43,524 bases of DNA. Source: Deltaproteobacteria bacterium (lineage in GTDB: Bacteria; Myxococcota_A; Polyangia; HGW-17; SLPX01). The notes beneath the pieces were generated by a model that was given only the letters and a program-made list of their open reading frames with translations, had not been told where the DNA came from and did not search any database. A program made the translations under genes and the position numbers. Numbering within the stretch: the first letter of the stretch is position 1; every line of letters starts with the position of its first letter. The DNA lies in contig JAGGXR010000004.1 in assembly GCA_021162935.1 (NCBI GenBank), positions 1-43,524 of the forward strand. The letters run 5' to 3'. This document shows, in pieces, positions 2,337 through 25,123 of this stretch.

Positions 2337-5300
2337 CTACTTGATGACCTTTTTCCTGGTTTCGCGGGGACGCATGAAACGACGCAGGACCTGGACCTCG
2401 ATGGGCAGGCCGGTGCGCTCGCCTGGTTCCAGGTCGGTGGGCGCCTTGCCGGCTAGTTTGCCCTGTCCGGGATAGATGAGCAGATGGTCGCCCACACGCA
2501 CCTTCTTGCGATCCACGAGGGCAAGGCCGATCTGGTACTTGTCCACGGAGACGCAGGAGGTCACCGTGCCGATGCATTCGCCTCGCCGTGATTCTACCAC
2601 CGGTGCAGGCGGACGGATGGGCTTGCCACCCGTTTCTCTCGCCTGGAACCGGATAATGCGACGCCTGCGATTGTGGTACGCGTCCAGCATGGCGTCCCGC
2701 CCTACGAAAAACGGCTTGTGCAGCCGCACGAAGGGCGCGTAACCAGCCTCCAACGGGTTGATGCCGAGCGGTCCGGCCAGTTCGTGTCCATGCAGGGGCA
2801 AGCCGGCTTCGGCGCGCGTCGAGTCCCTGGCGCCAAGGCCGGCTGGGATCACACCCTGGTCCTTGCCAGCGTCCAGAATCAGGTTCCACAATTCGGGCGC
2901 CTTGTCGGGCTGCGGGAACAACTCATAGGCAATGCTTTCGCCCGTGTAGCCAGTGCGGGCCACCCACATGTCCATGCCGCCGATACGACAGACCATCATG
3001 TGGAAACGCTCCATCTCGGCGAAGCGTCGCTTCTGGTCCTCGTCGGACATGAGGCTCAAAAGAACGGGCAGGGAGGCGGGCCCCTGGAACGCAACGTCGG
3101 CGCGCCGGTCCGCCCCTTGAGATTCGTCCAGCTTCAGATTGAGCAGCTCGACCTTGCCCTCCAGCTTGGTGAGCGGATGCCGTGGGTCGATCGGCACCCG
3201 ACCTTCGTTGACGGCGCGCAGCCAGACCTCATCCACCTCGGCATTGGATGCGTTGACCACCACCATGAATCGGTCGCGCGTCTCGCGGTACACGATGATG
3301 TCGTCGATGACCCCGCCGTTGGGGTCGAGGAGGTACGAATAATGGCACTGGCCCGGGTTCAGCCAGGGCACGTAGTTGCTCGTGAGCAGGTCCAGGAAAC
3401 GCTCGGCATAGGGGCCACGAACCGCGAGCACACCCATGTGGGACACATCGAACAGGCCGGCGGCCTGACGCACGGCCTGGTGCTCCAGGGCGATCCCTGA
3501 GTACCAGACCGGCATGGTCCAACCAGCAAAGGGAATCAGGTTCTTCTTGGGGGTGAGCTTGAGGTGCTCGTCGTACAAACAGGACCTGCGGTCCGGCAGG
3601 GGCTCCAGGTCCAGGGCCTTCTTCCAGGCGTCGTCGCCCAGTGGCTCGAAAGCTGCGGCCAGTTCCTTGTCGCTGGACGCGGCGCTGGTCGCAGCGCTGG
3701 ACGCGGCGCCGATCGCCTTGACCACCAGAGCCTTGCGGCCTACGAAGAATGGCTTGTGGGCCGCCGTATCTGCGAGGGTGACGCGAACCGAAGACACGAC
3801 ATGGTCGTACGCCTTGCGCCCACAAGGGCTCGCGCCCGCTTCGATGAGCCGGGACCAGACCTGGGCCACTCGATCGGCGGGAAGGAACAGGTCCACGCGA
3901 TCGAGGCTGTTCTTCGACCCTGTTGGCCTGCAGGCGTATCCACCTTCGAACGCCGTCGCCGCTCCCACATCGAGCGCCTTGGAACCCATCTTGCCCCAGA
4001 CGTCTGCCGCTTTGGGGCCCACCACGGATAGGGCGTACAGGTCCTGGTCACCGCGACGAGCCTTGCCAAGCGCCGCCGGCCCCTCGGCCTTCAAATAGAT
4101 GTCCTCGTCGTAGTACAGGTACCCGTCACTCAACGCGCGCAGCCATTCGAGGGTGTCGGCCGCGTCCTTGCCGGGACCGACCCGAAGCAGGAAGTGGTCC
4201 TTCCAAAAACGTCGGTCGTCGGGGCTGTCCAGCCGAGTCACCGACGCCTCGGCCAATACGGTTCCATCCTGGTCGAGCACGTGCCCCGACTGGGCCCGCC
4301 ACGCCTCAAGGCCGATGATGTCCGCGTCCAGGGCGGAATGCAGGAACAGGCCCACGCGACGCCCTGTCGCATCGACCACCTGGCAATCTCCCAGGTCCAC
4401 CAAACCGGCCGACTTGGACAGATTTGCCGCTTCGGCCGCCTCGTCTCCGTACGCGGCAACGACTTTCCTGCCCGAGGCGTCCATGAGGGCCGCCGATCCA
4501 CCCGCCGTCTCGGCGATGACCGTAGCACCCTGCTCTGCCACCGGACCAGGCAGATAATGCGGATACTGTTCGATGTCGCGTTCCACTGCCTCGGTCTGGC
4601 CGGCCACCGCCGTGATCCTGTCCACCTCGGCCCGGACCTCCTTGAGCAGACCCCACTCGACCTTGCCGCGGCCCACTGAACCACCGGCATACAGATACTG
4701 ATATGAATGCAGGCCTTCGAGGACGCGAACCACCAGGTCGGCGACCTGGTCCAATTCCTTGGGGCCCAACCCACGCTGGGTCGCCCAGGTTGTGCCGAAC
4801 CGCAACCCGGACGGATGCAGGACGCGCTTGTCTCCCGAAATGGTGTTCTTGTTGCAGGTGATGCCGCACAGGTCCAGCACGCGCGAGGCAATCTCGCCGG
4901 TGAGCTTTTTGCCCGAGGCCGTCTTGACCTCGCGTAGATCGAGCAGAAACAGATGCGTATTCGTGCCGCCGTAGGCCAGGGTCATGCCGCGCTTGCGGAA
5001 GCTCTCGGCCATGGAGGCCGCATTCTTGGCCACGTTCGCCATCAGCGTTCGAAACGAATCCGTGGCCGCCTCCTTGAACGCCGCAGCCTTCGAGGCGATC
5101 TGATGCATGTGGGGACCGCCCTGCTCTCCAGGGAAAACCCCCATGTCCACCTTCTTGGCCAGGGCACGGTCCGTCGTCAAAATGACGGCTCCGCGTGGAC
5201 CGCATATCGTCTTGTGCGTCGTAAACGTGATCACGTCCGCCAATCCGACCGGACTTGCGAGCACGCCAGTTGCCACCAGTCCTGCTGTGTGCGAAATGTC

Positions 5301-21680: not shown

Positions 21681-22094
21681 ATGGCCGTCAGCATCAAAGA
21701 CGACGATGACATCATGGCCGGTATCAACGTGACGCCCCTGGTGGACATCACGCTGGTCTTGCTCATCATTTTTATGGTCACAGCCACATTCATGAAGGAC
21801 CCCGTGGTGCCCATCGAGTTGCCCAGGGCCGCCACGGCCCAAGAGGCGCAGGTCAAAAATTTTGCCCTGGTGCTGGATGCCAAGGGCAAACTTTATGTGA
21901 ACGGACATCCGAGCAGTCTTGCGGACGCAGCCAAGAAGCTGAAGGCTGCTCATCGTGCCGATCCGTCGGTGCAGGCCATCATTGCCGCGGACGGTGAGGT
22001 CCGGCACAAGCAGGTCATTCGAGTGATTGATCTCGTGCGCAGGTGCGGAATCGTCAAGTTCGCGGTCAATGTCCAGCCGGAGGCACAACCGTGA
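21681..22094 (+). CDS. exbD: ExbD/TolR-family motor subunit
   Basis: A 137-residue protein with one N-terminal membrane segment; GAGGAG precedes the ATG. The segment INVTPLVDITLVLLIIFMVT carries the conserved proton-binding Asp (D24 in PLVD). The periplasmic domain has the normal ExbD layout (VPIELPRA, FALVLDAKGKLYVNG, IIAADGEVRHKQVIRVIDLVR). The size is typical. Its stop codon overlaps the GTG start of tonB (GTGA), so the two are translationally coupled. Confidence 0.94.
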   Translation: MAVSIKDDDDIMAGINVTPLVDITLVLLIIFMVTATFMKDPVVPIELPRAATAQEAQVKNFALVLDAKGKLYVNGHPSSLADAAKKLKAAHRADPSVQAIIAADGEVRHKQVIRVIDLVRRCGIVKFAVNVQPEAQP

Positions 22095-23005
22095 GACGCA
22101 CATTGGCATACCGAAAGCAGGTGCCCTACCATAGAGCGCCCAGGCCGAGTCCGACACTCGGCCTGCCCAGGGCCGGCGGGGGATGGGGCCTGTTGGCAGT
22201 CGCGGCAGTCGTGTCGTTTGGCCTGCACGGGATCGTTGCTGCTGCCATGGGCCGTGGCCCGGCTTACCGCAATGCCCCGAAGCGGATCCTGGTACCGGTG
22301 GTGTCCAGGCCGGCGTCCAGAAAGGGCGAAACGGCTGAGCCTCGGCCTCGGCCAGTCGTCCGTCGCCTGAGGCCGGTGGACCCGGCCCAACCGCGTCCTC
22401 AGACCCGCCCGAGACCCGTTGTCCACACTCATAGGACCGTTCATGCCCCAGCGATGCCTGATGCCCCGCCTCCTCAGAGGGTGTTCGGTCTCGACAAGAA
22501 CAGTTTGGCTCAGGGGAATGGGGCTGGATTGGCGATTCGGGTGGGCAACGACCTGATGAAGGAACAGGAAAAGGAATACACGCCTCCGAAGAAGGTCCAG
22601 CCCCTGCCTGAAGAGCCTCCGGCCCAGGTGGCTCCGGCCGCCCAGGTGGCTCCACCGCCGCCTCCTCCTCGTCCCAGACCCAGACCGAGACCCAGACCGA
22701 GACCCCGGCCGAAAACCTATGACCTGCGCAGCGTGACGGTCAACCCCCATTTTCTCAGGCGGGTTGCTCCCAGGTACACGGATGCGGCCCAGGACAACGA
22801 GGTTGAAGGAGTGGTCAAGATCGAAGTCGTTTTGGACAAAAAGGGGCGGCCCATGCGCCTCAGGATCGTCAAATCACTGGGCCACGGGCTCGATCAGGCG
22901 GTGATCAGGGCGGTCAAGGCCTCCCGGTTTTCTCCTGCCAAGATGGGTGGCAGTCCTGTTCGCTGTCGTCTCATCATTCCCTATCGTTTTCGTCTCGCGG
23001 ATTGA
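22091..23005 (+). CDS. tonB: TonB energy transducer
   Basis: A 304-residue protein. The GTG at 22091 overlaps the exbD stop, and GGAGG lies seven bases upstream, which decides this start. A Pro/Arg-rich cytoplasmic N-terminus precedes a TM segment at about 33-52 (GLLAVAAVVSFGLHGIVAAA). A long Pro/Arg-rich periplasmic spacer follows, including a PPPPPP stretch and a run of RP dipeptides (about 190-215). The C-terminal TonB domain (about 220-304) has VTVNPHFLRRVAPRYTD, VEGVVKIEVVLDKKGRP, AVKASRFSPAKMGG and VRCRLIIPYRFRL. It links the ExbB-ExbD motor to the receptor encoded at 18042. Confidence 0.93.
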   Translation: MRRTLAYRKQVPYHRAPRPSPTLGLPRAGGGWGLLAVAAVVSFGLHGIVAAAMGRGPAYRNAPKRILVPVVSRPASRKGETAEPRPRPVVRRLRPVDPAQPRPQTRPRPVVHTHRTVHAPAMPDAPPPQRVFGLDKNSLAQGNGAGLAIRVGNDLMKEQEKEYTPPKKVQPLPEEPPAQVAPAAQVAPPPPPPRPRPRPRPRPRPRPKTYDLRSVTVNPHFLRRVAPRYTDAAQDNEVEGVVKIEVVLDKKGRPMRLRIVKSLGHGLDQAVIRAVKASRFSPAKMGGSPVRCRLIIPYRFRLAD

Positions 23006-23066
23006 CCGGGTCCACATCCTCGGAGGGTCCAGTTTCTTTGAGTGCGGATCTTTTAGCCCGACGGAA

Positions 23067-23127
23067 ATTTGAATTATTTTCGATTTATTTTGTAATTCCC
23101 AATAGTTCCCACTTCTGAGAAGAAAAC
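23067..23127. repeat. Left copy of a 61-bp imperfect direct repeat flanking an AT-rich island
   Basis: 50 of 61 positions are identical, without gaps, to 24006-24066, in the same orientation. The shared core includes TTCGATTT and CCCACTTCTG. Weaker similarity (TTTTAGCCC / TTTTGGCCC) extends about 15 bases further left. It ends at the stop codon of the TauE/SafE gene. Confidence 0.85.
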
Positions 23128-23495
23128 TAGCTTAGTCCTGCCCAGCCAGAAAATATAAATTTTGTCCCCATCAACAAAAGCATTATTCCCAAGAAAATCT
23201 TTAACATGTTGCTTGGTAAATGAACAGCAATGTGAGCTCCAAGGAAACTAAAAAGGAGAAAACTGAGCATCACTATAAAACCAGCTTTAATGTCAACGAA
23301 ATCTTGTTTATAGTAACGCATTGCTGCCAATAGACTAATCGGTGCAGCAACTATAAACAAGGTTGTCCCCTGTGCAATTTTCTGAGGAAACTTGGCAAAC
23401 ACTGATAGACAAAAAATGATGATTGCTCCACCTCCAACACCAACGGCTCCCATAACGAAACCAGCTATTGCACCAATCAGAATTAATAATGTCAT
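23127..23495 (-). CDS. Short TauE/SafE-family membrane permease, probably acquired
   Basis: A 122-residue hydrophobic protein with about four membrane segments; AAGGAT precedes the ATG. The N-terminus (IAGFVMGAVGVGGGAIII) is the glycine-rich motif of TauE/SafE (DUF81) exporters of sulfite or other organosulfur compounds, which are usually about 250 residues with two such halves. Here only one half is present: either a naturally short subunit that dimerises, or a truncation, since the stop falls exactly at the edge of the 61-bp repeat. The gene is strikingly AT-rich and its codon use is unlike the rest of the window, indicating horizontal transfer. Immediately upstream is an attC-like half-site, so it may have arrived as an integron gene cassette. 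Confidence 0.75.
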   Translation of the reverse strand: MTLLILIGAIAGFVMGAVGVGGGAIIIFCLSVFAKFPQKIAQGTTLFIVAAPISLLAAMRYYKQDFVDIKAGFIVMLSFLLFSFLGAHIAVHLPSNMLKIFLGIMLLLMGTKFIFSGWAGLS

Positions 23496-23511
23496 TTTAT
23501 ATCCTTTTTCA

Positions 23512-23540
23512 AGCTAACGATTGGGTTCAGCCGCGCCGCC
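23512..23540 (-). other. Half of an attC-like integron recombination site
   Basis: On the minus strand GGCGGCGCGGCTGAAC, six bases, then GTTAGCT, twenty bases before the ATG of the AT-rich TauE/SafE gene. This resembles the right half (L' and R', consensus GTTRRRY) of a cassette attC site, placed as at the start of a cassette. The complementary left half is not found, so the site is partial or degenerate. Confidence 0.4.
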
Positions 23541-23925
23541 ACTCCGTTGACCTAGCCAGCACTCTGTGACGGATCTCCGCCGCCAACAACAGGCGCGATA
23601 AGCCATGCAATCTGGTGATATTAAAGGCATATGTGCTATGAGCGGAATTTTTTTTTACTGTGTACACGCGCTTGTCGCGAAGGAAGCACGGACGGGAGAT
23701 TGATGTCAACTTGGACTCGCGCGTTTTCGCCATCTGCTCGGCGGTCATCATGCCCTCGCGGCCTGCCTCCGGGTCTTCGAGTCCTCGGACCAGGTCGGCG
23801 TAGACCATGTCGCCGATCTCGGGGTGCTCGGCCAGGACCTTTCGGATCTGGGCCAGCTCTTTTGAGTGCTCGTGATCGATTGCGGGCTCGACCATTGGCA
23901 GTTGTTGGCGTATCTTTTTTCTCAT
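23527..23925 (-). pseudogene. Truncated transposase N-terminus fused to unrelated sequence
   Basis: A 132-codon frame starting MRKKIRQQLPMVEPAIDHEH. Its first 67 or so residues (through HPEIGDMVYADLV, PEAGREGMMTAEQMAK) resemble, from memory, the N-terminus of ISNCY-type transposases of about 450 residues. After AEQMAK the similarity stops and a 65-residue tail rich in Arg and Ser follows, ending ARSTEWRRG inside the attC-like half-site. No DDE catalytic core is present, so it cannot transpose. A CGCGG-CGTT-CCGCG hairpin at about 23950 lies just upstream of the start. I read it as an insertion-sequence remnant joined to cassette debris. Confidence 0.5.
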
Positions 23926-24005
23926 CGGGGCTCGCTCTTCCTTTGTTTGCGCGGCGTTCCGCGTTTTTGTTTGTTACAAGGTAGAACGTTTTGGCCCCGG
24001 TTTTT

Positions 24006-24066
24006 ATTCGAATTTACTTCGATTTCTTTTGTGATTTCCAATGCTTCCCACTTCTGGGATGAAAAC
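24006..24066. repeat. Right copy of the 61-bp imperfect direct repeat
   Basis: 50 of 61 bases match 23067-23127 in direct orientation; the copies start 939 bases apart. It lies about 80 bases upstream of the truncated transposase start on the minus strand. The two copies are direct, not inverted, so they are not the two ends of one insertion sequence. I see nothing clear in 24067-24203 beyond it. Confidence 0.85.
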
Positions 24067-24203
24067 GAACGAACCTTCGACAACCTGTCAAGGCCATGCG
24101 CGATCCTTCCCGAGTCCTTTCGAAAGCACCTGGCCGCGCCAAACCGTGGTTTGGTTCGACTTGAGGATTGACTTGTCGCGTCCCTTGAGCAAAGTAGCAG
24201 GCC

Positions 24204-24905
24204 ATGGATCGAGATGAGGCGAACAAACAGGCCCGATGGTATGCCCGCCCGGCGGCTCTCGTGGTCTGGGGTGTGGGATTCCGGTATCTCTGCCTGTCCG
24301 TGATGATCCTGATGACCCTCGTGGCGGAACGAAGGCCAGCGCCGACCCTGCCCGACGCCATCCTGTCCTGGATCCCGAGGATTCCTTGGATCGATCGCTA
24401 CAACTATCAGATCTGGCTCGTCGGCTACGTGCCCCTCGCCATCGTACTCGGATTCCGACATTTCAAGCCGTTTCTGCGCTTCTTGGTGGCAGGCGGCATC
24501 CTGTCGATCCTGCGTGGTCTGTCCATCCTGGCAACAGGCCTCGGGCCGGTCCATGGCCCCGACCTGAACGCCAACATGAGCTGGCATCAGGTGTTTGCGG
24601 CATGGGAGGATCTCGTCAACCCATTCAGCACACTCATGGGACATGGAGCGCAAATCAGCCTCACCAAGGACCTGTTCTTCTCAGGCCACACAGCGACGAC
24701 CTTTCTCCTCCTCCTGTACTGCTGGCGCGATCCAGTGCTGCGTTGGTGGGCGCTTGCCGCCCACACCATCGTGGTAGCCGTGGTGTTCCTGGCGCACCTG
24801 CATTATACCATCGACGTGATCGGCGCGTACGCAGTGACCTTTTCCCTGTACGTCCTGTTCGAATGGTGGCCCGAGCAACGGCGGCAGCAGGCAATACGGA
24901 ACTGA
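24204..24905 (+). CDS. PAP2-like / sphingomyelin-synthase-like membrane enzyme
   Basis: A 233-residue protein with about six membrane segments. DLFFSGHTATTF (about 152-163) and HLHYTIDVIGAY (about 199-210) form the His-His-Asp triad of the PAP2_C / sphingomyelin-synthase-like branch of the PAP2 superfamily. Family enzymes transfer or remove phospho-head-groups of lipids such as phosphatidate, ceramide or inositol lipids. All three catalytic residues are present. The Shine-Dalgarno is weak (AGCAGG two bases before the ATG). The exact substrate is unknown. It stands alone, next to the AT-rich island and convergent with the giant TPR gene. Confidence 0.82.
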   Translation: MDRDEANKQARWYARPAALVVWGVGFRYLCLSVMILMTLVAERRPAPTLPDAILSWIPRIPWIDRYNYQIWLVGYVPLAIVLGFRHFKPFLRFLVAGGILSILRGLSILATGLGPVHGPDLNANMSWHQVFAAWEDLVNPFSTLMGHGAQISLTKDLFFSGHTATTFLLLLYCWRDPVLRWWALAAHTIVVAVVFLAHLHYTIDVIGAYAVTFSLYVLFEWWPEQRRQQAIRN

Positions 24906-24951: not shown

Positions 24952-25098
24952 GGATGGACCGGCGTTCCACATGGATGGACCGGCGTTCCACATGGATGGA
25001 CCGGCGTTCCACATGGATGGATCGGCATTCCAGATGGATGGATCGGCGTTCCAGATGGATGGATCGGCGTTCCAGATGGATGGATCGGCATTCCACAT
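24952..25098. repeat. 21-bp tandem repeat, seven copies, between convergent genes
   Basis: Seven contiguous 21-bp units of GGATGGACCGGCGTTCCACA(T) with variants GGATCG and CCAGAT. The first three copies are identical and the later four drift. They fill most of the 218-base gap between the PAP2-like stop (24905) and the TPR stop (25124). I find no gene or clear terminator here. Confidence 0.97.
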
Positions 25099-25123
25099 GG
25101 CAGATGTATTCTGACCAGCCTCC

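Follow-up and report, generated by a model that had tools for sequence, protein, structure and literature searches.

A TauE/SafE-family gene in a Polyangia genome is a probable integron cassette remnant stranded among insertion sequence ends

A short TauE/SafE-family gene in the genome of a deltaproteobacterium (Myxococcota_A, Polyangia; assembly GCA_021162935.1) is best read as an integron cassette that came from outside the phylum, formerly stood in an array behind another cassette, and is now immobilised among insertion sequence (IS) ends. We put the probability of this reading at roughly 85%. It draws on the edges of the cassette, its foreign origin, the attI-like context of its relative, and the IS identity of both flanking repeats and of an outer end. 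The genome is a 5.1-Mb draft assembly of 168 contigs, designated below by C-numbers. From this point on, the window refers to the whole 43,524-nt stretch that was analysed (contig JAGGXR010000004.1).

The gene lies in an island flanked by tonB (22043-23005) on one side and a PAP2-family gene (24204-24905) on the other. Between 24066 and 23040, in minus-strand order, the island comprises an ISNCY-type left end that carries the beginning of a transposase gene (24066-23734), a repeated sequence (23706-23569), an attC-like 3' half (23545-23512), TauE and its leader (23517-23127), a second ISNCY-type left end, of 61 nt (23127-23067), and an ISKra4-type end of 26 nt (23065-23040). Its features are as follows.

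23040-23065, plus strand: ISKra4-type terminal end, 26 bp; the element's interior, formerly to the right, is gone
23067-23127, minus strand: left 61-bp repeat, an ISNCY-type left end within the cassette's inverse core (87% to C76, 82% to the right copy)
23128-23132, minus strand: AGCTA, what remains of the attC inverse core of the cassette (by alignment; the relative L044 reads AGCTAAC)
23127-23495, minus strand: the cassette gene, encoding a half-size TauE/SafE family protein of 122 aa (PF01925; L044 alignment)
23496-23517, minus strand: cassette leader, crossover point to start codon, conserved with L044
23512-23545, minus strand: attC-like 3' half, core GTTAGCT at 23518-23512 (29/38 nt as in the aadA1 attC of L068)
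23569-23706, minus strand: repeated sequence, also present twice in contig C78 (85% identity, over 138 nt and over 91 nt)
23734-24066, minus strand: truncated ISNCY-type left end with N-terminal transposase part, start codon at 23925 (79% over 333 nt to C76:13-345)

That the island is AT-rich, as a preliminary description made from the sequence alone had claimed, is borne out by GC fractions of 0.28 and 0.36 for the two 61-bp repeats and 0.38 for the cassette, against 0.52-0.68 in the rest of the window, where the only 500-nt step outside that range is 23001-23500 (0.39). A search for RNA families across 22900-24300 returned one match only, under its gathering score. The PAP2 neighbour was found in one of 13 genomes of the order, namely this one. 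Downstream of it, a tandem array at 24952-25100 comprises seven units of 21 nt (ATGGACCGGCGTTCCACATGG-like).

The open reading frame at 23127-23495 (minus strand) encodes 122 amino acids and matches PF01925 (E = 1.1e-17) with 65 bits against a gathering score of 32.6; the match takes in profile positions 1-110 of 237, as befits a half-size protein. The predicted product, going by its family, is probably a small TSUP-type membrane transporter formed as an oligomer of half-size units. A scan of bacterial and archaeal genomes for protein relatives returned nine loci. The nearest relative found, L044, comes from a Candidatus Bipolaricaulota metagenome-assembled genome (MAG), a host name that rests on MAG binning, and shows 90% protein identity, with 110 of 122 amino acids and 334 of 366 nucleotides identical. 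The two copies differ by a dS of 0.27 and a dN of 0.048. Their dN/dS of 0.18 indicates that TauE was under purifying selection during the time separating them, and so was functional while travelling.

At the DNA level, homology between the window and L044 extends over 395 nt at 90.9%, and its limits are those of a cassette, the core site and inverse core being taken as defined in passages of PMC12901181 and PMC3053210. A core site of the form GTTRRRY, with the crossover between G and TT, is present as GTTAGCT at 23518-23512, and the homology begins there, its upstream edge lying 3 nt before the G^TT of G^TTAGCTT (..CAATC|GTTAGCTTGAAAAAGGATATAAAATG in the window and ..TCATT|GTTAGCTTAAAAGGAGTATAAAATG in L044). 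The downstream edge falls inside the inverse core, at AGCTA(AC), where AGCTA|GTTTTC in the window, its latter part belonging to the IS end, stands opposite AGCTAACAAGGCG in L044, which begins in the manner of an attC. No inverse core RYYYAAC follows the gene within 22951-23140, the window passing from AGCTA into the IS; the homologue has AGCTAAC. The TauE stop codon takes its last base from the first position of the IS end (TAG for TAA). The complete palindromic attC expected after TauE is gone from the window and is broken in L044 as well, where the remnant folds no better than shuffled sequences (z 0.33). We class TauE as a cassette remnant rather than a complete cassette.

The surroundings of the relative also resemble those of an integron. 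In L044, an 89-nt attI-like stretch ending in GTT precedes TauE, and a 93%-alike stretch precedes an HNH endonuclease gene (Pfam HNH, E = 9.9e-5). Two further genes of the Bipolaricaulota MAG are preceded by a closely similar stretch, in one case with ATT for GTT, which brings the total to four cassettes. Beside the attI-like stretch, on the opposite strand, are fragments of an integron-integrase start. One of three repeats holds a divergent intI N-terminus fragment (TIGR02249, E = 3.3e-5; PF13495, E = 1e-7), and the two other intI-side frames of the three tested have no NCBIfam match. The L044 genome yielded no integron integrase above the cut-off, its intI fragments being sub-threshold. By these features, the context of L044 would be an attI arrangement, but in multiple and truncated copies. 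Across L044 2159-4734, L077 and L078, a truncated intI with an attI-like segment stands before four different cassettes, and three of the repeats start at the same GGGGTCAGACC; these repeated segments resemble duplicated attI units.

On the upstream side of the cassette, the minus strand reads GGCGGCGCGGCTGAACCCAATC|GTTAGCT, confirming the half-site, with its core at 23518-23512, that had been noticed from the sequence alone. A 75-nt query around it matched 42 plasmid records, weakly (best E = 0.04). In all three matches inspected (H6, H14, H23), the immediately preceding gene is aadA1, within a resistance cassette array, and intI1 is in view in two of the three. Some other records are clearly chance, such as Rhizobium transglycosylase genes. 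In direct comparison, 29 of 38 nt are identical to the aadA1 attC of L068. Like that site, which belongs to class 1 integron arrays (L068-L070), the window site has the 3' half CGGCGCGGCT(T/G)AAC....CGTTAGC; unlike it, the window site is without a 5' half, and its host and environment are unrelated. The 5' half is gone, as evidenced by the absence of RYYYAAC in the 200 nt upstream. An ungapped search for a 5' arm reached 9/16 at best, a little informative test given that the aadA1 control itself reached 10/16. Genome-wide, the half-site pattern has one match, that at 23512-23545, against one in a reversed control, which is not significant alone. The weight of the half-site comes from its position at the cassette edge.

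An integron integrase, which the preliminary description had proposed to look for, did not turn up in this genome over the curated TIGR02249 cut-off (0/1; best 87.9 bits versus 265). Because there is no such integrase and both flanking attC sites are broken, the cassette is no longer mobile. Single-attC remnants without an integrase are known, according to a passage of PMC9024848, where CALINs are described as attC sites that lack an integrase and, under the 2022 default, number at least two. The TauE remnant resembles these in its single gene with a core site, inverse-core remnant and upstream attC-type half in a genome without an integrase over the cut-off. It differs in having one half-site and a stub only, which makes it a remnant and not a CALIN by the definition in that passage (PMC9024848).

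The 61-nt direct repeats at 23067-23127 and 24006-24066 are 82% identical (50/61, spacing 939), as previously described, and their match has an E-value of 1.8e-10 within the 5.1-Mb genome and is therefore not due to chance. The right copy falls inside the ISNCY-type fragment at 23734-24066, and the left copy begins with the G at 23127 immediately after AGCTA. Further copies, sought on the advice of the preliminary description, occur in C76, in C22 and, less well matched, in C52. The C76 copy is followed by the transposase start that also stands at 23925. The C22 copy leads into an ISNCY C-terminus (NF033593, E = 3.8e-16), and there an inverted version of the end (17/20) closes the element. The repeat is absent from L044, where the only strong match, at query 580-973, corresponds to the cassette. 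Judged from sequence, then, the 61-bp repeats do not belong to the cassette and represent left ends of ISNCY-type insertion sequences of this genome. The likeness to the ISNCY family lies in the left end common to the window copies and the C22 copy with its ISNCY C-terminus and inverted ends; the difference is that both window copies are truncated.

The transposase remnant reported earlier is likewise borne out: the frame at 23527-23925 (minus strand) matches ISNCY with E = 0.023 alone, and the assignment becomes firmer through the other genomic copies. A longer ISNCY part in C23 scores 247 bits (E = 4e-73), under the cut-off of 325. No terminal inverted repeats were found at this C23 part, the window copies have one end each, and no intact ISNCY member was seen in the assembly. 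Pairwise identities among the two window copies, C76 and C22 range from 80 to 87%, the left window copy being closest to C76. Since the window pair (82%) is no more alike than the other pairs (80-87%), the two window repeats look like separate, independent insertions rather than the product of a duplication around the cassette, although 61 nt are suggestive and not proof.

Two further elements of the island were missed in the preliminary description. Just outside the left 61-bp repeat, 23040-23065 reads GAGTGCGGATCTTTTAGCCCGACGGA, an ISKra4-type start that recurs over 22-28 nt at seven other places in the genome (C92, C129, C96, C29, C115, C5 and C13), with unrelated left flanks. In C13 (L036), the copy is followed by an ISKra4 transposase scoring 315 bits against a cut-off of 205. 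In the window, only 26 bp are kept and everything beyond has been replaced. Elsewhere, these ends come in two forms, with and without some 160 nt after the first 28 nt (L020 and L023 versus L036), and in L023 a coding-like repeated sequence with a period near 96 nt (2548-3931) adjoins the ISKra4-type end. The second element, the repeat at 23569-23706, supplies the C-terminal part of the "transposase" frame 23527-23925. It has no NCBIfam match under 0.02, and the C78 frame has no Pfam match. We considered it as the 3' end of the same ISNCY copy and dropped this assignment, as it has no family match and C22 shows a different ISNCY 3' end. A 102-nt repeat, 96% alike at L014 2401-2502 and 4622-4723 with different left flanks, is also represented in the window at 23569-23706.

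TauE could have been brought in as one unit by a pair of related, directly oriented ISNCY ends, since 61-bp ends of one IS family do flank the gene and composite elements are a known kind. We hold such a composite transposon to be improbable. Neither side is a complete IS, the left being 61 nt and the right some 333 nt with the 3' part missing; foreign sequences (the attC half and the repeat at 23569-23706) intervene between the right end and the gene; and in L044 the cassette stands free of both ends. The left end, moreover, lies within the inverse core, a position that fits an IS arriving after the cassette.

Slighter still is the chance that TauE is an ordinary horizontally acquired gene, its core-site and half-site matches being coincidental. 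The half-site pattern occurs at the chance level of about one per genome and no integrase over the cut-off exists here, both of which would suit this explanation, but both edges of the L044 homology coincide with the core and inverse core, and the attI-like site repeated before four different genes stands before the L044 TauE. An assembly chimera, in which the AT-rich stretch was misjoined to the contig at repeated IS ends, is about equally hard to credit. The assembly is indeed a draft of 168 contigs with related IS copies at contig edges (C76, C23), but the IS fragments are 79-87% identical to their best other copies, and so not collapsed repeats, and the junctions lie inside the contig between complete flanking genes.

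With the cassette reading preferred, its source can be sought. In the phylum, 7 of 377 genomes match TauE at 1e-10, this genome included, and the best other reaches 33%, so that vertical inheritance in relatives, which the preliminary description had named as a refutation, was not seen among those searched. TauE looks foreign to this phylum, as far as these matches tell. Relatives of about 70% identity in Desulfuromusa and kin stand directly after dxs, recognised by eye, in the four loci read (L046, L047, L049 and L050), which suggests a vertically kept source in that group. No match was found in viral contigs, and the three plasmid records are all under 43% identity. Cassette exchange across phyla, and even domains, is reported in a passage of PMC9668308.

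We propose that the TauE gene would have been captured as an integron cassette, in an array behind a cassette whose attC survives here as a 3' half. One of the genome's ISNCY-type elements would then have inserted into the cassette's own inverse core, and further insertions (ISNCY, ISKra4 and the repeat at 23569-23706), together with deletions, may have removed the rest of the array. The outcome would be one cassette and several element ends left between tonB and the PAP2 gene. Of the history first suggested, the cassette stands, through its core and inverse-core edges, the half-site and the attI-like neighbour in L044, as does the transposase remnant. The arrival of the repeats together with the island does not, given the repeat-free L044 cassette and the ISNCY-type left ends in C76 and C22; nor is the repeat a common chromosomal intergenic element, the other possibility raised at the time, being an IS end.

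Insertion sequences of the IS1111-attC group target attC sites, and the IS end within the attC box of the window is similar to these. The transposase fragment beside it is of a different family, with one instance only. A preference of the ISNCY-type element for attC inverse cores, by which it would land on and freeze cassette arrays, is most doubtful.

At the level of search results, literature naming integron, gene cassette and TauE together contained no report of such a TauE cassette. The known picture of integrons is unchanged. The remnant is of an ordinary kind, and its cross-phylum relative is well documented. The case places one cassette gene in two different phyla, with its vertical source plausibly visible, and illustrates a cassette turning into a fixed chromosomal gene after IS insertions destroy its recombination sites.
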